Part shown: positions 28,719 to 40,728 of the stretch, in pieces
How positions within the stretch are numbered: the stretch's first letter is position 1
Layout of the letters: every line of letters starts with the position of its first letter
Assembly (NCBI GenBank): GCA_021784575.1
Contig: JAJYHX010000003.1
Span: 186,001-250,000 of the forward strand
Direction of reading: 5' to 3'
DNA from: Nitrospirota bacterium
GTDB taxonomy: Bacteria > Nitrospirota > JACRHJ01
Length of the DNA stretch: 64,000 nucleotides
Notes under the pieces: generated by a model
The model's input: the letters and a program-made list of their open reading frames with translations, nothing else
Database searches by the model: none
What the model was told of the DNA's origin: nothing
Made by a program: the position numbers and the translations under genes

Positions 28719-29459
28719 TCAGGACTGGATTTTCCGGCAGGACGCCTCCGGGGAATAACCTTCGGCTGAAAAAAGCTTTATCCCGGAACCGCTGTTTTTA
28801 TGCACGGCTCCCTTCCCGGAATATTCCACGATATCGCCCTCGAACGCGCGTATGTCGGCGGGTTCGTGCGAGATCAGGATTACGGGGATATTGAAGCGCG
28901 CCTGCACGGCTTTAAGCTCGGCGCGCATTTTCTCGCGCAGGCTGTGGTCGAGGGCGGAAAACGGCTCGTCGAGGAGCAGGACGGAAGGGTTATTGACAAG
29001 CGAACGGGCCAGGGCGACCCTCTGTTTCTGGCCGCCGGAGAGGTCCCGGGGCAGGCTTTCAGCCATCTCGCCGAGGCCGAATATCTCAAGGAGTTCCGAG
29101 ACTTTTCCCCTGTCCGCCATAGAGAGCGGCTTAAAGAGCTTTTTAAGCCCGAAGCCCACGTTGTCTGCCACGCTTAAGTGCGGGAACAGCGCGTAGTCCT
29201 GGAACAGGTAGCCTATCCTGCGCTCGCGCACGGGCACGTTTACGCGGCCTTCGGAATCGAACAACACCCGCCTGCCTATTTCAATCCTGCCGGAGTCCGG
29301 CGTCTCGATGCCTGCGATGCACCGAAGCGTAAGGCTCTTGCCTGAGCCGGACGGCCCGGAGAGTATCGTGTAACAACTGCGGGAGGAAAACGAGACGTCC
29401 AGGTTGAATCTTCTGCTCCCGGAGGTCATTGTCTTTTTTATGCCGACGCGCGCCGTCAT
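28719..29459 (-). CDS. modC: Molybdate ABC transporter ATPase
   Basis: 246 residues. Walker A GPSGSGKS, signature LSGGQKQRVALARSL, Walker B LLLDEPFSALD, H-loop LISHEP. It is shorter than E. coli ModC (352) because the C-terminal molybdate-binding MOP domain is absent, as in many anaerobes. Its ATG overlaps the modA stop (ATGA). The mod genes close the formate dehydrogenase operon, so import follows demand for molybdenum cofactor. Confidence 0.92.
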   Translation of the reverse strand: MTARVGIKKTMTSGSRRFNLDVSFSSRSCYTILSGPSGSGKSLTLRCIAGIETPDSGRIEIGRRVLFDSEGRVNVPVRERRIGYLFQDYALFPHLSVADNVGFGLKKLFKPLSMADRGKVSELLEIFGLGEMAESLPRDLSGGQKQRVALARSLVNNPSVLLLDEPFSALDHSLREKMRAELKAVQARFNIPVILISHEPADIRAFEGDIVEYSGKGAVHKNSGSGIKLFSAEGYSPEASCRKIQS

Positions 29460-30220
29460 GGCCTGCTGAAACCGTACCGGGCGAGTATCGCCCGTCCCTT
29501 GTCGGAGAGCAGGTATTTTATGAATCTTAGCGCCGCGGCGCGGTGTCTCGTCGAAGATACGACGCCTATCGGATAGACCACGGGCTTGTGCCCCTTTACA
29601 TCGCTTACGACCTTCACCTTGTTCCTTACGATGGCCGCGTCGGTAGCATAGACAAACCCGGCGTCCACTTCCCCGCGCGAGACATACTCAAGCGCCTGGC
29701 GGACGGAGTCGGCATATATGAACTTCGGCGCAAGAACGCTCCACATCCCGGATTTCTTCAGCGCCTCTTCCGTATACAGGCCCGCGGGCACGGTCTCGGG
29801 ATTTCCCACGGCTATCCGCTTTACAGAGCCGCTCATGAGGTCTTCCAGGCCCTTGATGGCCGTCCCCTTCGGAGCGACAAGGACAAGCTTGTTGCCCGCG
29901 AAATTTACAACGGTCGAGTAGTCGATGACGCCTTTCATCCGCGCCATCCGCATGGTCTTTACGTCGGCGCTCGCGAACGCATCTACGGGCGCGCCCATGA
30001 CAATCTGCTGAAGAAGCGGTCCGGACGCGGCAAAGTTGAAGGTTACCTTCACGCCCGGGTTCGCCTTTTCAAAACCCTTGCCCGCCTGGTTGAATGCGTC
30101 CGTCAGGCTGGCCGCCGCGGAGACTATTATTTTTTCGCCGGCCAGCGCAGCCGAAGAAGACCAAGCCGACACCGCGGCAAAAACAAGCGTCAAAACCACG
30201 ACATTCCTTAGCGTCTTCAT
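29456..30220 (-). CDS. modA: Molybdate-binding periplasmic protein ModA
   Basis: 254 residues from the ATG at 30220 with AAAGGA upstream. Signal peptide of about 27 residues ending in ALAG. The oxyanion pocket motif AAASLTDAF is visible, with FNFAASGPL and GAPVDAFASAD, as in ModA. It binds molybdate (or tungstate) and delivers it to ModB. Tungstate preference cannot be excluded from sequence, and some anaerobic formate dehydrogenases use tungsten. Confidence 0.93.
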   Translation of the reverse strand: MKTLRNVVVLTLVFAAVSAWSSSAALAGEKIIVSAAASLTDAFNQAGKGFEKANPGVKVTFNFAASGPLLQQIVMGAPVDAFASADVKTMRMARMKGVIDYSTVVNFAGNKLVLVAPKGTAIKGLEDLMSGSVKRIAVGNPETVPAGLYTEEALKKSGMWSVLAPKFIYADSVRQALEYVSRGEVDAGFVYATDAAIVRNKVKVVSDVKGHKPVVYPIGVVSSTRHRAAALRFIKYLLSDKGRAILARYGFSRP

Positions 30221-30295
30221 TCTCGTTTCCTTTGCCGTCAAGGGATTAATAAAAAACCGCCTTTGAAAACGAAATCCCGTTAACCGCCTCGCGCG

Positions 30296-30964
30296 TCAGT
30301 ATTCCGTCCTCAGGAGCTTCCCGGAGAACACGAGCATCACCATGCATATCGCCGACGTGAAGATTACAAGCTGCATGGAAAGCGTGTCGCTGCCCGCCTG
30401 GACGGCGTCGTATATTGCGAGCGAGAGCGTCTGCGTCCTGCCGGGCAGGTCGCCCGCAACCATGAGCGTGGCCCCGAACTCGCCCATCGCCCTTGCGAAC
30501 GCGAGCATCACCCCGGCAAGGATTCCGCGCCATGCAAGCGGGAGCGTTACCCTGAAAAATACCGAAGTCTCCGACTGCCCAAGCGTCCTTGCGGCGTTCT
30601 CGAAGTCCTGCGGCACCCCTTCAAACGCGGCCCTCGCGGACTTTATAACCATCGGCAGAGAGACGATTGACGCCGCCACAACCGCGCCCTGCCACGTGAA
30701 CATGAGCGAGACGCCGAGATAGCGCTCAAGCCATCTCCCGATGAAGCCGTTCCTGCCCACGACTACGATGATGTAATATCCCAGGACCGTCGGCGGCAGG
30801 ACGACGGGCAGGGTAAGAAAGGCGTCGAGCCAGTCCCGGCCCGGAAAACCCTTGCGGGACAGCGCATAAGCCAGGGCCGTCCCGGCGACAAGCGCAGCGA
30901 ATGCGGCCAGACCGGCGACCTTCAAGGTAAGAAGCAGCGGAGATAATTCTATGGCATTAAACAT
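30296..30964 (-). CDS. modB: Molybdate ABC transporter permease
   Basis: 222 residues with five hydrophobic segments and the binding-protein-dependent permease loop GQSETSVFFRVTLPLA before MGEFGATLMVAG, typical of ModB. It lies 34 bases after the MoeA-like gene and 76 bases before modA. Order is modB-modA-modC, not the usual modABC. Confidence 0.93.
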   Translation of the reverse strand: MFNAIELSPLLLTLKVAGLAAFAALVAGTALAYALSRKGFPGRDWLDAFLTLPVVLPPTVLGYYIIVVVGRNGFIGRWLERYLGVSLMFTWQGAVVAASIVSLPMVIKSARAAFEGVPQDFENAARTLGQSETSVFFRVTLPLAWRGILAGVMLAFARAMGEFGATLMVAGDLPGRTQTLSLAIYDAVQAGSDTLSMQLVIFTSAICMVMLVFSGKLLRTEY

Positions 30965-30998
30965 GGGAGTTTACCTTCGCGAATGTCTTTGAATGCCG

Positions 30999-32066
30999 TC
31001 ATTTCCCGAACGGGCACAAAGGATAGACGCATTCCCGGCAGCCGAGGCAAAGACCGCCGTGCCCAATCTCCGCAAGCTCTCTCCTCCCTATGCGCTCTCC
31101 GGCAAGTATCCTTGGGAGCAGGAGGTCGAGGACGGTCGTCCTGTGATACATCCCGCAGGCGGGAACGCCGAGCACCGGTATGGTCTTCTCCCCTTCGATA
31201 TATCCGACCAGCGCCATCGAGCCGGGTATTACCGGCGAGCCGTAGACCATGTCCCTTACGCCCGCCTGCCTGAGCGCGAACCTCGTAACGTCGTCCGGGT
31301 CAACGGACATGCCTCCCGTGACTATAAGCAGATCGGCCCCGGCGTTTATTAGCTCGACAATCCTGTCCCTTATGAAAGATTCGTCGTCCGGGGCGTAATA
31401 CTTCCCTGTTATCCTGCCGCCGAAGGCCTCGATTTTGGCCTCCATGACGGCTGAAAATGCGTCCTTTTTGCGCCCGTAATACACCTCGCTGCCGGTAACG
31501 ACAATCCCGGCCAGGGGCTTCCTGACTTCCCTGACCTCTATAACGCCTCCGGCTGATTTTGCAATCCTTGCCGCCTCGTCAACCACGTCCTTCTTTATGA
31601 CAAGCGGTATCGGCCTCGCTCCCGCAACGACCTGTCCCTTCTTTACGAGCGTATTTTCGTGCAGCGTCGAGCATACGACTTCGCCGAGCATGTTCATGGC
31701 AAGGAGCGCCTCGCGGTTGACCTTCAAAAGCCCGTCCCTGGCGGCGATTAAATTCACTTTCCCTTCCCTCGGCTCGCCTTGCGCGGCGATTCCTTCGCCC
31801 GCCAGCGCCGCCGCAAGCGCGACGGCCGCGTCGTCCTCGTGCATCTCGTCGCCGGCAATCGAGAGCACGAAGAGGTTGTTTTTGCCCATGTCCCGGAGGC
31901 GCTCTATGTCCATCCGGCAGACCCTGTGCCCCCTTCTGAAGGCCCTGCCCTTGAATTCGTCCTGACGGATTTCCGTAATGTCGTGCTCAAGGAGCATTCC
32001 CACCGCCTCTTCAAGCGGCACGACCTTCACCTCGGGCCTGTTATTTCTTTCGCTGCTCTCACACAT
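30999..32066 (-). CDS. MoeA/MogA-like molybdopterin-binding protein with a C-terminal cysteine cluster
   Basis: 355 residues from the ATG at 32066. The MoCF-biosynthesis domain is at about 180-320 (GIVVTGSEVYYGR, LLIVTGGMSVDPDDVTR), with the substrate loop of the MogA/MoeA fold. The N-terminal ~80 residues are a SAF-like or linker part. The C-terminus carries four cysteines in GGLCLGCRECVYPLC, which could hold an Fe-S cluster or a metal; this tail is not in E. coli MoeA. It lies between fdhD and modB and probably inserts molybdenum or handles the cofactor, but the exact step is not known. Confidence 0.8.
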   Translation of the reverse strand: MCESSERNNRPEVKVVPLEEAVGMLLEHDITEIRQDEFKGRAFRRGHRVCRMDIERLRDMGKNNLFVLSIAGDEMHEDDAAVALAAALAGEGIAAQGEPREGKVNLIAARDGLLKVNREALLAMNMLGEVVCSTLHENTLVKKGQVVAGARPIPLVIKKDVVDEAARIAKSAGGVIEVREVRKPLAGIVVTGSEVYYGRKKDAFSAVMEAKIEAFGGRITGKYYAPDDESFIRDRIVELINAGADLLIVTGGMSVDPDDVTRFALRQAGVRDMVYGSPVIPGSMALVGYIEGEKTIPVLGVPACGMYHRTTVLDLLLPRILAGERIGRRELAEIGHGGLCLGCRECVYPLCPFGK

Positions 32067-32113
32067 AATTATCCGACCTCTTACCGCTTTAAGTAATCCG
32101 GCCTTGCCGTGGT

Positions 32114-32923
32114 CTACATCAGAATCCTGAACGGATGGGTATAAATAACCATGTCCCTGTCCCGGAGCCGGCCCACAAGGGTGCAGCCCATGCGGTCCGC
32201 CAGGTTTACGGCCAGAGACGTGGCGGCGGATATTGCCGCCACTACGGCAATCCTTGCCCTTACCGCCTTCTGCACCATCTCGAAGCTTATGCGCCCGCTT
32301 ATAAGCGCAACACACCTGCGGCAGTCTATGCCGTTCATCATCGCATGGCCTATGACCTTGTCCATCGCGTTATGCCTGCCGAGGTCCTCCCGAACCACCA
32401 TAACCTCTCCGCCGGCGTCCGCCAGCGCCACGGCGTGGGCGCCACCGCGCGTCGTTCTGAATAAATCCTGCATCTTCAGCATCTCATACTGCATCCTTAC
32501 GAGGTCTTCGGCCTTTATCTCCAGCCCGCCTTCAAGCCGCGAAAGCCTGCGGCCCAGGTCATCGAGCATCCGGACTCCGCACAGCCCGCAGCTGCTCCTG
32601 GATGTCAGGGCGCGCGGGCCGGGGCGATGTTCGTCTTCCCTCAGGCTGTTTTTGACTATCACCTGGACGACGTTTTTCAGCTCGCCGGTCTCGTCCGGAC
32701 AGAATCCCATGCTGAGAATATCCGCGAACGAATCTGCAATCCCCTCCGTCAGGCAAAACCCCGCCGCAAGCTCCATCTCGTGCCCCGGCGTCCTCATCAC
32801 GACGGCATACGGCAGGCCGTTTATCCTTATCTCAAGAGGCTCCTCGACTACAAGCGGGACGTCTTCCGAGGTCTTCGCGCCGTTTTTTAAATGAAGCGCC
32901 GGGAGTTCGATATACTGCTCCAA
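32114..32923 (-). CDS. fdhD: Formate dehydrogenase sulfurtransferase FdhD
   Basis: 269 residues from a TTG start; GGGGAG sits 7 bases in front. FdhD passes sulfur from a desulfurase to the Mo site of formate dehydrogenase, an essential activation step. The catalytic cysteine loop is SSCGLCG (family motif CxxC), and RGGAHAVALAD, REDLGRHNAMDKVIG and SGRISFEMVQKA are diagnostic. It lies 13 bases after the FmdE-like gene in the formate dehydrogenase operon, next to its target genes. Confidence 0.95.
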   Translation of the reverse strand: MEQYIELPALHLKNGAKTSEDVPLVVEEPLEIRINGLPYAVVMRTPGHEMELAAGFCLTEGIADSFADILSMGFCPDETGELKNVVQVIVKNSLREDEHRPGPRALTSRSSCGLCGVRMLDDLGRRLSRLEGGLEIKAEDLVRMQYEMLKMQDLFRTTRGGAHAVALADAGGEVMVVREDLGRHNAMDKVIGHAMMNGIDCRRCVALISGRISFEMVQKAVRARIAVVAAISAATSLAVNLADRMGCTLVGRLRDRDMVIYTHPFRILM

Positions 32924-32936
32924 TACCTATCTCCCC

Positions 32937-33500
32937 TCAGGCGTATGGAAGTCTTCCGAGACAGCCGCCGCAAAGCCCGCCGTCAGACGCGGGATACGCC
33001 TCGCCGCACTTCGGGCAGAGCCTCACGGGCCCGATTTTCATTTTCGTTATGCGATTAATGTCCACTGCTATTCGCCGCGCGCCCAGAAGTCCCGTCCCGG
33101 CGCCCTCGATTTCCGCGAGGAGGCGGTCTGAGTCCTGCTCCGCCTTTGGCTTAAGCTTCAGGAACCAGCCGTGTATCTCCGGCCACGCAGCAAGCTTCTT
33201 TGCGTCCACGAATACCCTCGCCCCCTCGCCGGTCGTCTTGTCATAAAGCGCCAGGGCGTAGCGGCCCACGTGCGCTACGTGAATCCGTCCGTTGCCGAGA
33301 GTGCATGGGGTCAGGAGCTGCACAGCATCCGGCAGGCATACGCCCGTCTCGCACAGGGCCTCGAAGAGGACGCCTTCCGGAAGCATCCGGCGCGCCATTT
33401 CGACCATGTATCCGCCTATAAGGACGCCCGGCGCCGGGCTTCCGTGAAATTCACGGACAACCTCGCAGAACTCACCGAAGCTGAACCTCCCTATTCGCAC
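32937..33500 (-). CDS. FmdE-family protein with a C-terminal zinc ribbon
   Basis: 187 residues from GTG at 33500, overlapping the SfrA-like stop by 10 bases; a longer open frame exists upstream but overlaps a real gene. FREFHGSPAPGVLIGGYM at the start is the FmdE signature (FHGHxxPGxxxG) with the central His changed to Ser; CETGVCLPDAVQLLTPCTLGNG follows. The C-terminus has CPKCG...CGGC, a probable zinc or Fe-S binding ribbon. FmdE occurs with molybdenum or tungsten formylmethanofuran dehydrogenases and formate dehydrogenases; its biochemical role is unsettled. Confidence 0.8.
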   Translation of the reverse strand: MRIGRFSFGEFCEVVREFHGSPAPGVLIGGYMVEMARRMLPEGVLFEALCETGVCLPDAVQLLTPCTLGNGRIHVAHVGRYALALYDKTTGEGARVFVDAKKLAAWPEIHGWFLKLKPKAEQDSDRLLAEIEGAGTGLLGARRIAVDINRITKMKIGPVRLCPKCGEAYPASDGGLCGGCLGRLPYA

Positions 33501-35767
33501 GGTATGAAAAGCCCCTTCCCGCGCGCGAACCGGCCTCCCCTGTAAAGCGCCGGCGTCCCCGGATGTCCTTCGTCCGGGCACGGCCACTGTATGCCGTCTC
33601 CCTCGATGCGGCGGCAGGTTATGCCCGCGAAGAGCGGCGCGAGTTTCGAGATTTCGTTATCCCATATGCCGGACGCGTTCTCCGAGGCCCACTCCTGCCC
33701 CATGCGCCCGGCAATCTCGCGGAATATCCACCAGCCCGGCTTGGCAAGCCCGGCAGGCTCCTTTACCTTACGCACCCGGCTTACCCGGCGTTCGCTGTTG
33801 GTGAAGGTGCCGTCGGCCTCGCACCATGCGGCGGACGGCAGTATAACATGGGCCATGCGGCTGGTCTCGGTGGCGAGGGTGTCCTGGCAGATTACAAGCT
33901 CGGCCCTGGCGAGGGCATCTTTAAATCCCGGCGAATCCCCCGCCGGGTCCTCGCCGAAACAATAAAAGGCCTTCAATCCGCCGCCGGCCAGGGCGCCATG
34001 AACTTCAGAGAACGCCATGCCGGGTTTCGGCGGCAGCCCCGATACCTGCCAGGCCTTGTTGAATTTCTCGAGTATCTCTATGTCCTGAACGCTCTGATAG
34101 CCGGGCAGCATGTCCGGCATTGCGCCCATGTCGCCGGCGCCCTGGGCGTTGGCGCGGCTGTGAATTATGTTTACGCCTCCGCCTTCGCCGAAGCCGCCGA
34201 GCAGCATCTGGAGGTTCGCAAGAGACGCGGCGGCGCCCGGGCCGCAGCCATGTGCCGGGACAAGGCAGATTACGGCCGGCCTGATTCCGGCAAGGCGGCG
34301 TGCGATACCGCGTATGGTTTCCGCGTCAGCGCCCGATAGCTCCGCCGCGCGTTCCGGAGTCCAGGCCGAAACGAACGCCCTGAACTCGTCGAAACCCTCG
34401 CAGCTGTCCCGCACGAAATCCCTGTCGTAAAGCCCTTCCGAGATTATTACCGACGCAAGACCGTTTACGAACGCCGCTTCGGAGCCTTTGCCGATCACGG
34501 CCCGGAGGGCGGCATGTTCGCTCATCCGGCCTGTTTCATAACCTGCGGCGATAAGTTCCGCCCCGCTCCGGACGGCGTTTTTCACAAACGTGGCCGCCAC
34601 GGGATTTTCATCGGCCATATCCGCGCCGATACAGAATATCGCCCGCGCGGAGGGAATCTCGCCGAAGGAATTTGTCGCCGCCCCGATGCCGAACGACGCG
34701 GCAAGCGCATTGGCCGAGCCGGCGTTGTCGATGTTGTTCGTGCCCGCCACCGCCCTGAAGAGCTTCTGCATGTTGTAGGCGTCTTCGTTTGTCGCGCGCG
34801 TGGAGCACAGCCCGGCCACGGCGTCCGGGCCGTGGCGTCGGATAATCTTTTCAAGGTGTGACGCCGCGAAGTTCAGCGCATCGTCCCAGGATGCCTTGCG
34901 GAGCTTCCCGCGTCTCCTTACCTGCGGCAATACGAGGCGGTCTTTGCCGTATACGAAATCGAACAGGAACCGGCCCTTGACGCAGAGCCTGCCCTTGTCC
35001 GGAGACGCGCCGGGGACTGCCGTTATCTTGGCAATCTTACCAGCCTTGACATGAACCGTCTGCTGACAGCCGACGCCGCATTGCGGACAGGTGGTGCGGA
35101 TTTTGTCGGTCTCCCATATGCGCGCGGCCCCGCGCGCGCTCTTTTCCCTAAGGGCGCCGACAGGGCAGACATCCACGCACTGCCCGCACTCGACGCACTT
35201 CGCCGGGTCCGGCAGGGGGAACCAGCCGCCGGAATCCTGATGCTCCTCCCGGCGTCCGAACGGGTTCCTGATGGCGTCGTTTACCTGCACGTCCGAACAT
35301 GCGGCTATGCACCTGCCGCAGAGTATGCACTTGCTGTAGTCGCGGATGATGAACGGGTCGTCGAAGGCCTTGGGGAACCTGTCCAGCGGCGGACACGATT
35401 CGGAAGGCGACGCCTCATGGTTATACGCTATGTCCTGAAGCCCGCAGTCCCCGTTTGCGCCGCACGCGAGACAGGCGTGTCTCCCCGACGCGAGGAGCAT
35501 GTCTATAGTGCGGCGGCGGGATATGGCAACCCGTTCCGTATTCGTCCAGACCTCCATGCCCTCGCGGACCTGCGTGCTGCATGCCGGCAGAAGTCTTTCC
35601 GCGCCCTCCGCTTCCACGACGCATATGCGGCAGACGTCGCAATGGCCGCTTTCCTTGTAATAGCAGAGCGTGGGGATGTAAACGCCCGCGGCCTGGGCGG
35701 CTTGAAGTATCGTCTGGCCGGGCGAGAACGAAACCCATCGGCCATCAAGGAGCATTGTGGAACGCAT
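33491..35767 (-). CDS. SfrA-like / FdhA-like molybdopterin oxidoreductase subunit lacking the metal-ligand Cys
   Basis: 758 residues from ATG 35767 (GGAGG upstream). N-terminal 2Fe-2S domain (YIPTLCYY, HCDVCRICVV), His-type cluster (HACLACGANGDC), two 4Fe-4S sets (CILCGRCIAAC, CVECGQCVDVC), then the molybdopterin oxidoreductase domain beginning CPQCGVGC. In active formate dehydrogenases a Cys or Sec stands in the stretch after GTNN, for example CARVCH in the neighbouring fdhA; here that stretch reads DNAGSANALAASFG, with neither Cys nor His. It may be an electron-transfer subunit like NuoG or SfrA of Geobacter. It pairs with the SfrB-like gene upstream. Confidence 0.85.
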   Translation of the reverse strand: MRSTMLLDGRWVSFSPGQTILQAAQAAGVYIPTLCYYKESGHCDVCRICVVEAEGAERLLPACSTQVREGMEVWTNTERVAISRRRTIDMLLASGRHACLACGANGDCGLQDIAYNHEASPSESCPPLDRFPKAFDDPFIIRDYSKCILCGRCIAACSDVQVNDAIRNPFGRREEHQDSGGWFPLPDPAKCVECGQCVDVCPVGALREKSARGAARIWETDKIRTTCPQCGVGCQQTVHVKAGKIAKITAVPGASPDKGRLCVKGRFLFDFVYGKDRLVLPQVRRRGKLRKASWDDALNFAASHLEKIIRRHGPDAVAGLCSTRATNEDAYNMQKLFRAVAGTNNIDNAGSANALAASFGIGAATNSFGEIPSARAIFCIGADMADENPVAATFVKNAVRSGAELIAAGYETGRMSEHAALRAVIGKGSEAAFVNGLASVIISEGLYDRDFVRDSCEGFDEFRAFVSAWTPERAAELSGADAETIRGIARRLAGIRPAVICLVPAHGCGPGAAASLANLQMLLGGFGEGGGVNIIHSRANAQGAGDMGAMPDMLPGYQSVQDIEILEKFNKAWQVSGLPPKPGMAFSEVHGALAGGGLKAFYCFGEDPAGDSPGFKDALARAELVICQDTLATETSRMAHVILPSAAWCEADGTFTNSERRVSRVRKVKEPAGLAKPGWWIFREIAGRMGQEWASENASGIWDNEISKLAPLFAGITCRRIEGDGIQWPCPDEGHPGTPALYRGGRFARGKGLFIPCE

Positions 35768-35778
35768 CTGTCCTCCGT

Positions 35779-37680
35779 CTATCCAAGAGCCGCAATGGCT
35801 ATGCGGTAACAGCGAAGGCAGCGGCCTGCCTCCTGTCTCGCCTCGGCCGGCGAGAGACATCCTTCCACCTCTTCAAAGCTGCGGACGCGCGTCTCCGGGT
35901 CGGTCATGGGCGGGTGATGCCTGTGTGTAAGGACGGCGAACGGCGCGTCGTCCGAATGGCCCGGCCTGCTCAGGGATGAAACCGCCTGGTCGAGCCAGTC
36001 CTCCGGGCGGGGCGCGCTGTTGCCCGTCTCAAGATAATCCATTATGGAATGCGCCGCGCGCCTTCCCGCCGCCAGCGCCGCGACAAGTGTGCTCGGGCCG
36101 GTCACGCAGTCACCGCCGCCGAAAATATGCGGCGTGCCGGAGCGCATGGTGACGGGGTCTACCGCAAGCGTCCGGTTTTTGTTTATGCCGGCGCCGTCCG
36201 GCAGCAGCCTGTCCACCTCGCAGGACTGGCCGATGGCGGGCACGATGGCGTCGCAGTCTATCAGAAAATTCGATTTTTCTTCCGGGATAGGTTTCCTTCT
36301 GCCGGATGCGTCGGGCCTGCCAAGGGTCATCCTGACGCATTCGAGGGCCGTTACGCGCCCGCCGCTCGCGTGGATCTTGACAGGCGCGACGAGCGTGTGG
36401 AAATTTACCCCTTCGTCCTTGGAATCGGCTATCTCGAAGGGGTCCGCGGGCATCTCCTTCTCCGTGCGCCTGTAGAGCAGATTCACGTCCGTGAAGCCGA
36501 GCCTGCGGGCGGAACGGACGCAGTCCATTGCGACATTGCCGCCGCCGATTACCAGTATCTTCCTGCCTGAGAGCGGCTTCTCGCCGAAAGCCACCTTCCT
36601 GAGGAACTCAACCCCCGGCATGTAACCCCTGTAGCCGGCGTCCTCCCCCTCGCAGCCCATCGCGGATGAATTGGGCGCGCCGGCGGCTATGAAGACCGCC
36701 TTGTAACCCTCTTCGAGCATCTGCGGGATTGTTATGTCTTCGCCCACCTTCACGCTGTAGCGTATCTCGGCGCCCGCGGCCTCGACCCGCGCGGCCTCTC
36801 CGCGCAGAATATCGCGCGGGAGGCGGTAATCCGGTATGCCCACGGCGGCCATGCCGCCCGGCTCCGGCAGGGCCTCGAAGATAGTGGAACGATACCCCTG
36901 GAGGCCGAGATAATACGCGCACGAAAGGCCCGCGGGGCCCGCGCCGACAATGGCAACTTTTTCATCCCGCGGCGGCCTTTCGGGGATGGATGCGCCGCCC
37001 GCCTTAATCTCAAAGTCCGCAGCGACCCTCTTCAAGTGCCTTATGGCAATCGGTTCGTCGATTGCCCCGCGCTTGCACTTGAACTCGCAGTCCTTGACGC
37101 AGACGCGGCCTATGGTGCCGGGCATACAGCAGGTATTGCGCACAATCTTTATGGCCTCACTCCAGTGTCTCATCCTTATTTTTTCGACGTATCCGGGAAT
37201 ATCGACGCGGGTGGGACACGCGCTGATGCACGGGGCCGTCACCTGGCAGACGTATTCCCCGCGCGGCACGGGCCTGGCCTCGCGGATTGCTTCCACGAAC
37301 CTGTCGCGGAAGCTGTATATCGCGTCGAGTATAGGGTGCGGGGATGTAAGGCCGATGTCGCAGCGCGAGGACTCGTGGACGTATCCCGCCACCGCCTCCA
37401 GCCTGTCGATGTCCTCCATCACGCCGCGCCCGCCGCAGATCCGCTCCATTATCTCCGCCATCTCCTCCGTCCCCATGCGGCAGGGAAAACACTGGCCGCA
37501 GGACTCCGCCTTCGCGCGCGAGGCGTATTCGCGCGTCATGTCCACAATATCGACGGATTCGTCGCGGATGATAAGCCCGCTCCAGCCCATCAGCGCCCGG
37601 ATGGGCAGTTCCTGAGGGAACGAGAGGGGAGCGCCGACGCCGGACGGGCCGTCCGTCCCCCATGTAGAAAAAACCGTCAT
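35779..37680 (-). CDS. SfrB-like NAD(P)H oxidoreductase subunit (NuoF C-terminus plus GltD-type)
   Basis: 633 residues; start ATG 37680 with AAGGAG. The N-terminal ~130 residues match only the C-terminal Fe-S part of NuoF (ESCGQCFPCRMGT and SSRCDIGL), with no FMN/NADH Rossmann part. Then comes the GltD-like Fe-S segment (CISACPTRVDIPGY, GRVCVKDCEFKC) and a two-dinucleotide-binding reductase domain (VGAGPAGLSCAYYLG, VIGGGNVAMDCVRSAR). This matches SfrB of Geobacter (soluble NADPH oxidoreductase). It lies between fdhA and the SfrA-like gene, so it could pass electrons between NAD(P)H and either subunit. Confidence 0.85.
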   Translation of the reverse strand: MTVFSTWGTDGPSGVGAPLSFPQELPIRALMGWSGLIIRDESVDIVDMTREYASRAKAESCGQCFPCRMGTEEMAEIMERICGGRGVMEDIDRLEAVAGYVHESSRCDIGLTSPHPILDAIYSFRDRFVEAIREARPVPRGEYVCQVTAPCISACPTRVDIPGYVEKIRMRHWSEAIKIVRNTCCMPGTIGRVCVKDCEFKCKRGAIDEPIAIRHLKRVAADFEIKAGGASIPERPPRDEKVAIVGAGPAGLSCAYYLGLQGYRSTIFEALPEPGGMAAVGIPDYRLPRDILRGEAARVEAAGAEIRYSVKVGEDITIPQMLEEGYKAVFIAAGAPNSSAMGCEGEDAGYRGYMPGVEFLRKVAFGEKPLSGRKILVIGGGNVAMDCVRSARRLGFTDVNLLYRRTEKEMPADPFEIADSKDEGVNFHTLVAPVKIHASGGRVTALECVRMTLGRPDASGRRKPIPEEKSNFLIDCDAIVPAIGQSCEVDRLLPDGAGINKNRTLAVDPVTMRSGTPHIFGGGDCVTGPSTLVAALAAGRRAAHSIMDYLETGNSAPRPEDWLDQAVSSLSRPGHSDDAPFAVLTHRHHPPMTDPETRVRSFEEVEGCLSPAEARQEAGRCLRCYRIAIAALG

Positions 37681-37705
37681 AATCTATGACTCCTTAGAGA
37701 AAACC

Positions 37706-40417
37706 TTAGCCAATCTTCTCCACTCGGACGGCGCAGACCTTGTATTCCGGGCACTTGACCACGGAGTCGTATGTGCTGTTGGTTACAAGGTTCGTAAGCG
37801 CGTCCTGGTAATGGAAAGACATCCAGACCGTGCCAATCGGGGACTTGTCCGTTACCGCGGCCCTGACCTGCACCTCTCCGCGCCGGGATACGACCTTCAC
37901 GGCCTCGCCGTCAATGATGTTCAGGCGCGACGCGTCGTACGGGTTCATCTCGACGGTCTCGTGGTTCCACGCTTCATATATTCCGGTGCGGCGGGTCATG
38001 GAGCCGTTGTTGTAGTGCTCCCGCCTGCGCCCCGTGCTCAGGATAAACTCAAATTCGGAATCCGGCCACTCCGAAGGCTCCTGGAAGTCTATCGGCGTGA
38101 ATACCCCAAGGCCGTCCGGATGGGGCGAGAACCTCTCGGTATACATGGTTTCCGTGCCCTTGGAACCCGGCGGGCAGGGCCACTGAATTCCCTTCTCCCT
38201 CAGGCCCTCCCATGTGCAGCCGCCGATGAAGTGTTCGGCGACTTTCGTCATCTCGTCAAATATCCCGGAGGCGTGGGAGTATTTCGGGCCGTCGTAACCC
38301 ATCCGCTCCATAACGTCGCAGATTATCTGCCAGTTCTCCTTGCCGGAAAGCGGCGGGATGGCCTGGTTTACGAGTTGTATGCGCCGCTCCCCGTTGGCGT
38401 ATGTGCCGTTCTGCTCGGCGAACGACGACGCCGGAAGGACGACGTGCGCGAACTTCGCCGTCTCGGTCATGAACATCTCCTGCACGACGAGGAAGTCGAG
38501 CGCGGAAAGGTTCTTCCTGATGTGCGAGATGTCGGGGTCGGTGTGCGCGGGGTCTTCGCCCAGTATGTAGAAGCCCCGGATACGCTTGTCCGCCATCATG
38601 CCGAGCATGTCCGTCGAGCGAAGGCCGACCGCCTCCGGCATTTTTGTCCCCCAGGCCTTCCCGAACTTCGCCCTGACAGCCGGGTCGGCGACTTTCTGGT
38701 ATCCGATGAAGATGTCCGGCAGGGCGCCCATGTCACATGCGCCCTGGACGTTGTTCTGGCCGCGAAGGACGTTGACGCCCGTGGACGGACGACCGACGCT
38801 ACCCGTGAGGAGCGCGAGGTGTCCCAGGCTCATGACGCCCTGCGTGCCCCAGGCGTGTTCCGTGACGCCGAGGCTGTAATATATCATCAGGTTCCTGGCA
38901 TTGCCGAGCATCCTCGCCGCCTCGACTATCTTCGACGGGGACACCCCCGTTATCCTCGCGGCATACTCCGGCGTGAACTTCTCGAGGTTCTTCGCAAACG
39001 CCTCGAAGCCCTTCGTGCGCTTCCCGATAAACTCCCTGTCGTGCAGGCCCTCCTTAACGATTACATGCATCAGGCCGGAGAACAGCGCGACGTTCGTGCC
39101 GGGGCGAAGCGGGAGGAAACAGTCCGAATGCCTGACAAGCTCTATCTTGCGCGGGTCGGCGACTATGAGCTTCGCGCCGTTTTTCACGGCCCGCTTTATG
39201 TTCATGCCTATTATCGGGTGCGCCTCGGTGGTGTTCGAGCCCGTCACAAAGAGCACGTCCCCGCCTGAGATCTGGTCGAAGGAGTTCGTGGCCGCGCCCG
39301 TTCCGAATACCGCCGAAAGCCCGGCGACGGAGGGCGCATGGCATACGCGGGCGCAGTTGTCCACGTTATTCGTGCCGAACACCGCGCGGGCAAGCTTCGT
39401 AAGCAGGTAATTGTCCTCGTTTACCGAGCGGGAGCAGGCGAAGACGCCAAGGCTGTCCGGGCCGTATTTATCCTTTATTTCCTTGAACTTCATGGCGATA
39501 AGGTCGTACGCTTCGTCCCATGTCGCCGGGGAGAACTCGCCGTCCTTCTTTATGAGCGGCGTGGTTATGCGCTCCGGGCTGTGGACAAATTCGTATCCGA
39601 ATCGCCCCTTGACACACGTTCTGCCCCGGTTTACAGGCCCCTCTTTTGAACCTTCGGCCCTTACAACCCTGTTGGTCTTCGGGTTAACATACAGGTCTAT
39701 GTTGCAGCCGGTGCCGCAGTACGGGCAAGTCGTGCGGACTTTTTTGAGGTCCCAGCTCCTGCCGCAGAGCTTCTCGCGCTTCCCCATGAGGGCACCGGTC
39801 GGACAGGCCGCTATGCACTGGCCGCAAAGCTCGCAGTCCGCAAGCGTGCTGTCCTTGTCCTTCGGGACGTCGGCGATTGCCGTAAAACCCTTTACGGAGT
39901 CGCAGCCTATGGCTCCCCGGACGACTATCTCGCTACAGGCGCGCACGCATCGGTTACACATGATGCACTTGTTCCTGTCCCACTCTATGAGCGGGTTGTT
40001 GTCCTCGATGGGGTAGTTGTTCTTCGCCCGGCCCCAGTCGGAGGTTATTTCGCCCGCCGGGAGGTATTTGTGGGCAAGCGTTTCAAGCTCGCACCTGCCG
40101 TTTTTTTCGCAGACCATGCAGTTGTTCGGGTGGTTGGACAGGATAAGCCTCAGGACGCTCCGCCTCGCCGCGAGTATGTCGTCGTCTTCCGTTATCACCC
40201 GCATCCCCTTATAAATCCGCGTGTTACATGCCGGGATAAGCCCTGAGGCGGAATCGACTTTCACAACGCATACCCTGCAAACCCCAAGTGGTTTCAGGCC
40301 GTCCAGGTGGCACAGCGTGGGGATGAAATACCCTGCCTCTTTGGCCGCTTCGACTATGGTCCGGCCCTCTTCGGCAACAACCTTTTCGCCGTTTATCGTT
40401 ATAGTTATTTCAGCCAT
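37706..40417 (-). CDS. fdhA: Formate dehydrogenase catalytic subunit, Mo/W-type, with N-terminal Fe-S domains
   Basis: 903 residues from ATG 40417 (GAGGGG upstream). Domains: 2Fe-2S ferredoxin (TLCHLDGLKPLGVCRVCVV region), NuoG-type cluster (CMVCEKNGRC), two 4Fe-4S sets (CIMCNRCVRAC, CELCGQCIAAC), the Mo-domain 4Fe-4S CPYCGTGC, then the pterin-binding domain. The Mo ligand is Cys, coded TGC, in NCARVCHAPSVAG; it is not selenocysteine. This cytoplasmic form has no Tat signal. It oxidises formate or, with a suitable donor, reduces CO2. First gene of the nine-gene operon, downstream of a Moco-type riboswitch. Confidence 0.93.
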   Translation of the reverse strand: MAEITITINGEKVVAEEGRTIVEAAKEAGYFIPTLCHLDGLKPLGVCRVCVVKVDSASGLIPACNTRIYKGMRVITEDDDILAARRSVLRLILSNHPNNCMVCEKNGRCELETLAHKYLPAGEITSDWGRAKNNYPIEDNNPLIEWDRNKCIMCNRCVRACSEIVVRGAIGCDSVKGFTAIADVPKDKDSTLADCELCGQCIAACPTGALMGKREKLCGRSWDLKKVRTTCPYCGTGCNIDLYVNPKTNRVVRAEGSKEGPVNRGRTCVKGRFGYEFVHSPERITTPLIKKDGEFSPATWDEAYDLIAMKFKEIKDKYGPDSLGVFACSRSVNEDNYLLTKLARAVFGTNNVDNCARVCHAPSVAGLSAVFGTGAATNSFDQISGGDVLFVTGSNTTEAHPIIGMNIKRAVKNGAKLIVADPRKIELVRHSDCFLPLRPGTNVALFSGLMHVIVKEGLHDREFIGKRTKGFEAFAKNLEKFTPEYAARITGVSPSKIVEAARMLGNARNLMIYYSLGVTEHAWGTQGVMSLGHLALLTGSVGRPSTGVNVLRGQNNVQGACDMGALPDIFIGYQKVADPAVRAKFGKAWGTKMPEAVGLRSTDMLGMMADKRIRGFYILGEDPAHTDPDISHIRKNLSALDFLVVQEMFMTETAKFAHVVLPASSFAEQNGTYANGERRIQLVNQAIPPLSGKENWQIICDVMERMGYDGPKYSHASGIFDEMTKVAEHFIGGCTWEGLREKGIQWPCPPGSKGTETMYTERFSPHPDGLGVFTPIDFQEPSEWPDSEFEFILSTGRRREHYNNGSMTRRTGIYEAWNHETVEMNPYDASRLNIIDGEAVKVVSRRGEVQVRAAVTDKSPIGTVWMSFHYQDALTNLVTNSTYDSVVKCPEYKVCAVRVEKIG

Positions 40418-40554
40418 CAATCCCCTCTTTCTTAGGAAAATTTACAACGGCGGGACGGCCAAAACGGCTCTTGGGGCGCATCCCATGCTTGCCAGTACGA
40501 CTAATGTAAGTATTTATAAAATTTTAAAAAACCGAAATACCTGGACTTTTGAGA

Positions 40555-40692
40555 CACGGGTACCGGCACCGCGCGGAGCACTCCTTTCCAAGGTAGCGGG
40601 AGACCATGCGCTTTCGGGCATGACCCTGTCGGCCGGCGCCCGTGGCCGTGCGAATGGCTTTAGGAAGCGCGGGCTTCGGAGTATGGTTTTCC
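40555..40692 (-). promoter_or_regulatory. Moco (molybdenum cofactor) riboswitch, probable
   Basis: Reading the minus strand, the leader contains CTCCGAAGCC, CTAAAGCCATTCGCACGG, CCACGGGCG, CAGGGTCATG and CTCCCGCTACCTTGG followed by AAAGGAGTG. These line up in order with the conserved blocks of the Moco RNA motif known from moaA and other molybdenum genes. It lies about 140-275 bases upstream of fdhA, just downstream of a strong promoter. The ends of the element are approximate. The match is from memory of the motif, not a covariance search. Confidence 0.75.
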
Positions 40693-40699
40693 GAATTGC

Positions 40700-40728
40700 A
40701 GAATACCGTATCCAAATACCATTGTCAA
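40700..40728 (-). promoter_or_regulatory. Sigma-70 promoter of the formate dehydrogenase operon
   Basis: On the minus strand TTGACA (40728-40723), a 17-base spacer and TATTCT (40705-40700). The transcript would begin near 40693, at the edge of the riboswitch, and have a leader of about 275 bases before fdhA. Confidence 0.75.

Follow-up and report, generated by a model that had tools for sequence, protein, structure and literature searches.

A P3-lacking RF01055 riboswitch, probably responsive to tungsten cofactor, ahead of a nine-gene formate dehydrogenase and oxyanion-import operon in a genus of Nitrospirota

The window analyzed here is a 64-kb stretch of DNA (G000:C5:186001-250000) from the 2.1-Mb, 96.7% complete genome of an uncultured member of Nitrospirota. 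On its minus strand, nine co-directional genes, each assigned by Pfam or NCBIfam profiles, run from 40417 to 28719 behind a riboswitch of the RF01055 family, in the order fdhA, sfrB-like, sfrA-like, fmdE, fdhD, a gene for a MoCF-domain protein, modB, modA, and modC, with overlaps or gaps of at most about 75 nt at the junctions. An earlier note on this DNA had proposed nine genes in one direction behind a switch, and the profile assignments, along with the recurrence of the arrangement in four other genomes of the genus, bear this out; its coordinates agree with ours to within a few bases, except that the true starts of the sfrA-like, fmdE, MoCF-domain, and modA genes lie inside the open reading frames that it listed.

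The first gene, fdhA (37706-40417; this and all other features located below in the window are on the minus strand), encodes a 903-aa, Cys-type catalytic subunit of formate dehydrogenase with NuoG-like FeS domains, recognized by its Pfam domains and by TIGR01591 (827.9 bits, cut-off 666.25). The next two genes form a module of the SfrAB/Stn type as judged from Pfam domains and PDB relatives, that is, a GltD/NfnB-like NAD(P)H reductase combined with an FdhA/NuoG-like subunit, as in Geobacter SfrAB and Sporomusa StnABC. In the SfrB-like NAD(P)H subunit (35779-37680; 633 aa; PF10589, PF14691, and PF07992), a NuoF C-terminal FeS domain is fused to Fer4_20 and a GltD-like reductase, and the PDB relatives of this protein include Stn-type and Nfn-type chains. 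The SfrA-like subunit (33491-35767) appears to be derived from FdhA, with Molybdopterin and FeS domains retained and the Molydop_binding domain missing; it aligns with FdhA at 35%, with a gap exactly at the active-site segment. Given that both the active-site Cys/Sec-His segment and the C-terminal dinucleotide-binding domain (PF01568) are absent according to the FdhA alignment and Pfam, this protein is probably a non-catalytic, electron-transfer subunit, comparable to SfrA and to the C-terminal half of StnC, and the module might form a complex with the formate dehydrogenase. The likeness to the Sporomusa system is incomplete: StnC holds both parts in one chain, whereas in the window they are split over two genes, with the catalytic fdhA as a further gene next to them, and the operon includes no genes for StnA or StnB (NuoE/NuoF).

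The remaining genes encode maturation and import functions. An fmdE-like gene with a GTG start and an FmdE zinc finger (32937-33500; PF02663, 111.2 bits) is followed by fdhD, the formate dehydrogenase accessory sulfurtransferase (32114-32923; PF02634, 237.1 bits; TIGR00129, 179.1 bits), and by a gene for a MoCF_biosynth-domain protein (30999-32066; PF00994, 64 bits) that probably handles molybdopterin. The importer consists of modB, a molybdate-type ABC permease (30296-30964; TIGR02141, 228.8 bits, cut-off 182.6), modA, a molybdate/tungstate-binding protein (29456-30220; TIGR01256, 202.8 bits), and a modC-type ABC ATPase (28719-29459; PF00005, 105.4 bits; TIGR02142, 182.1 bits, below the equivalog cut-off). 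The modA and modC genes overlap by 4 nt, and modA is single-copy in the source genome and in each genome of the genus.

Upstream of fdhA lies a sigma-70-type promoter, TTGACA-17-TATTCT (40700-40728), in which TTGACA starts at 40728 and, after a 17-nt spacer, TATTCT ends at 40700. The hexamers match the consensus at 10 of 12 positions and are invariant in the leaders of five congeneric species, in agreement with the promoter identified earlier; as a mere pattern, such a match occurs no more often than expected by chance (5 found vs 4.3 +/- 2.6 expected). The riboswitch aptamer (40565-40693) was detected with cmscan against all Rfam families as a full-length match to RF01055 (model positions 1-135; 51.2 bits, E 2.5e-9, gathering score 36), so that the riboswitch claim of the earlier note passed the covariance search proposed there as its check. 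It is the sole Rfam match in the window and the sole RF01055 match in the 2.1-Mb genome. The model columns for the P3 stem are deleted in the alignment, where the P2 strand GGCC passes directly into GACAGGG (GGCCGACAGGG), which places the aptamer outside the P3-containing Moco class and gives it the defining absence of P3 of the Tuco class; in the control, the E. coli moaA leader, P3 is retained (103.6 bits). The genes downstream (fdhA, fdhD, fmdE, MoCF, and modBAC) are of the kinds expected behind RF01055 leaders, namely, those for Mo/W cofactor, enzymes, and transport. The window RNA shares with the E. coli moaABCDE leader its covariance family, the conserved multistem-junction core, the GAAA loop, and the location in a leader ahead of genes related to Mo/W cofactor but differs in the lack of P3, in the long gap to the first gene, and in the control of an enzyme and importer operon rather than molybdopterin (MPT) synthesis.

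The absence of P3 bears on the identity of the ligand. Regulski et al. (2008) split RF01055 into P3-containing (Moco) and P3-lacking RNAs, with 58 of the 176 RNAs in the latter group, found tungsten-cofactor genes in 17 of the 19 organisms with P3-lacking RNAs, and proposed Tuco sensing (PMC2408646). The description of the element in the earlier note as a Moco switch on a Mo enzyme holds at the level of the RF01055 family, but the RNA belongs to the P3-lacking subclass that the literature links to the tungsten cofactor. The missing P3, the link made by Regulski et al., and a P3-less switch ahead of tupABC (tungstate import) in the sister genus (G005) together make "Tuco" likelier than "Moco", and tungsten cofactor rather than molybdenum cofactor is the ligand that we consider likely. 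The TupA-like protein of the sister genus scores 208.6 bits and so falls short of the equivalog cut-off (400); TupA was found in the sister genus and not in the genus of the window. The source genome also carries a gene of the AOR family, a tungsten enzyme family.

The alternative leaves the operon and its switch unchanged but takes the ligand to be molybdenum cofactor, or cofactors of both metals, with the loss of P3 as a trait of the lineage. P3 is missing from every Nitrospirota RF01055 copy that was aligned or read as sequence, and because some of these copies precede apparent molybdate transporters, of the ModA and MOT1 types, the absence of P3 may indeed be lineage-specific; furthermore, the closest PDB chains of the window ModA are molybdate-binding ModA proteins. 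This argument is tempered by the report that one member of the ModA-type transporter class does not discriminate against tungstate (PMC2408646), and the published segregation of P3 with Tuco, the tupABC genes under a P3-less switch in the sister genus, and the AOR-family gene all count against molybdenum, leaving this alternative less probable than tungsten sensing. The ModA and FdhA sequences do not discriminate between Mo and W. The P3/Tuco rule itself is a correlation: the E. coli RNA lost regulation when P3 was deleted and did not switch specificity (PMC2408646), and direct proof of tungsten-cofactor sensing by P3-lacking RF01055 RNAs was not found in the literature searched. Pelobacter carbinolicus offers a direct precedent for a P3-less switch on molybdate-type transport: a P3-lacking RNA of this species is listed with a predicted molybdate transporter (PMC2408646). 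The window RNA resembles such members of the subclass in the lack of P3 and in heading genes for W-enzymes, MPT, or oxyanion transport, in contrast to which a single operon of the window combines formate dehydrogenase and the Sfr-like module with fdhD and mod.

Directly 3' of the aptamer lies a candidate terminator hairpin, GCCGGTACC..GGTATTTCGG followed by T6 (40526-40567), a putative expression platform that is kept in five species: all five congeneric leaders have the form GCCGRTACC ... GGTATTTCGG and then at least six T. In the window, this hairpin has a bulge and is weak (-8.9 kcal/mol, compared with -8.5 to -11.5 kcal/mol in the other congeners), and a nearly perfect terminator occupies the equivalent position ahead of tupABC in the sister genus (-24.1 kcal/mol). 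A simple terminator scan did not detect the leader hairpin, owing to its long loop and bulge, and unconstrained folding was uninformative, with the whole-leader fold no better than shuffles (z 0.90). Given the location of the hairpin and T-run immediately behind the aptamer, we take transcription termination to be the probable mode of control, and the hairpin energy suggests that such control is of low strength in the window. Under translational control, the bound aptamer would instead alter access to the fdhA ribosome site with no termination involved. The weakness of the window hairpin would fit such a mechanism, and in three other genomes of the phylum (G010, G019, and G027), where MoCF homologues with about 51% identity directly follow P3-less switches, the 3' strand of P1 is located at a start codon, as would suit translational control. 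In the window, however, the fdhA start lies about 150 nt beyond the aptamer, and the maintenance of the hairpin and T-run in five species, together with the strong terminator that the sister genus has at this position, renders translational control of this operon unlikely.

Our main reading, to which we assign a probability of roughly 0.7, is that the P3-lacking RF01055 switch, most likely sensing tungsten cofactor, controls the nine-gene operon by terminating transcription before fdhA. Transcription would start just downstream of 40700. When a molybdopterin-type metal cofactor, most likely the tungsten form, is abundant, it would stabilize the aptamer; formation of the short hairpin and T-run after P1 would then stop part of the polymerases before fdhA. 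When the cofactor is scarce, read-through would yield formate dehydrogenase, the SfrBA-type NAD(P)H-linked electron-transfer module, the maturation proteins FdhD, FmdE, and the MoCF protein, and the only ModABC oxyanion importer of the cell.

The other four congeneric genomes have the same nine genes in the same order behind the same P3-less switch: G001, G002, and G004, and likewise G003, where they extend over two contigs. A MoCF-profile scan of genome contigs identified 80 loci, 76 of these outside the genus; none of the 76 contains the nine-gene operon, and a relaxed motif regular expression found no switch in them. RF01055 itself was found in few genomes of the phylum (at least 18 of 396, a lower bound obtained with strict filters), and, combined with the absence from the 76 loci, this makes the nine-gene set under one switch look like a recent, genus-specific arrangement within the limits of these searches. 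Elsewhere in the phylum, P3-less switches precede tupABC, ModA-type transporters, a MOT1-type molybdate transporter, and MoCF genes. In G036 (L032 146-1477), the P3-less switch is immediately ahead of the open reading frame for the MOT1-type (PF16983) transporter and overlaps its 5' end.

Both the RNA class and the P3-less subclass were already known, as was the link to W/Mo enzymes and transporters. The exact gene set, which was unfamiliar to the author of the earlier note, was likewise not found under one switch in any report in the literature searched, and the titles and abstracts of the papers found on Moco riboswitches together with formate dehydrogenase do not describe the arrangement.

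Comparison within the genus revealed a second P3-less RF01055 switch, here denoted element B, between modB and modA in G003 (L023 3248-3392) and G004 (L025 11996-12157). Element B has a promoter, TTGAC(A/G)..TATACT, and a terminator of its own. In G001, a switch of this type precedes not modA but a gene for an OprO/P-like porin (PF07396; L020/L070, G001:C12:31090-30944). The window genome lacks element B at both sites, the modB-modA gap and the porin leader. An internal start, which the earlier note had named as a finding that would refute its single transcript under a single switch, is thus present between modB and modA in two sister species and apparently was lost from the window genome; a single transcript fits the window sequence, but this condition appears to be secondary. 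The sister-species promoters raise the possibility that modA and modC in the window are expressed mainly from an internal start, outside the control of the fdhA switch; with the internal promoter absent, only about 75 nt between modB and modA, and modA overlapping modC, we regard this as improbable.

The modB-modA gap retains a candidate scar of the lost second promoter and riboswitch, AAAGGCG-G-TTTTTTATTAATCCC (30242-30265), which corresponds to the G004 element-B terminator in its 3' arm and T-run. Taken alone, the scar is a weak local alignment, with the best segment in the flank and the score reached by 6 of 2000 shuffles, and, being short, it was judged together with the flanking synteny. 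In the porin leader of the window genome, the element-B terminator and the sequence that follows it survive as a clear remnant (score 85, compared with 29 for the best of 1000 shuffles). Across the porin leaders (L067, L164, L165, and L166), the switch is gone in four of the five species with different breakpoints: G002 and G003 retain the terminator without the aptamer, and G004 retains the promoter without the aptamer. Repeated loss of element B is the simplest reading of these remnants, separate gains being the alternative, and with repeated loss the operon under one switch, as found in the window, is probably a derived state.

The same series nominates the OprO/P-like protein as a candidate tungstate/molybdate porin of the outer membrane. 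In the Pelobacter genome paper, outer-membrane channel genes were noted near molybdopterin riboswitches, and aorA genes were linked to the RF01055 class. More tentatively, tungsten-cofactor riboswitches might cover an entire regulon that comprises formate dehydrogenase, the electron-transfer module, cofactor insertion, inner-membrane import, and the OprO/P-like oxyanion porin, in which copies of one second switch before modA and before the porin are being lost species by species, fusing import to the enzyme's own switch. The genus and its sister form a natural set of related P3-less switches on fdhA, modA, tupA, and the porin, with copies kept or lost in each species; the series illustrates how small deletions can rewire a riboswitch regulon and makes the Mo-versus-W question testable.

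Two further features of these loci were observed. In the sister genus (L026, G005), the switch and tupABC are closely preceded by a gene for a homologous porin. Between the MoCF gene and modB, G001 (L021 12114-12300) and G004 (L025 11063-11248) have a segment of about 185 nt that is absent from the window, G002, and G003.
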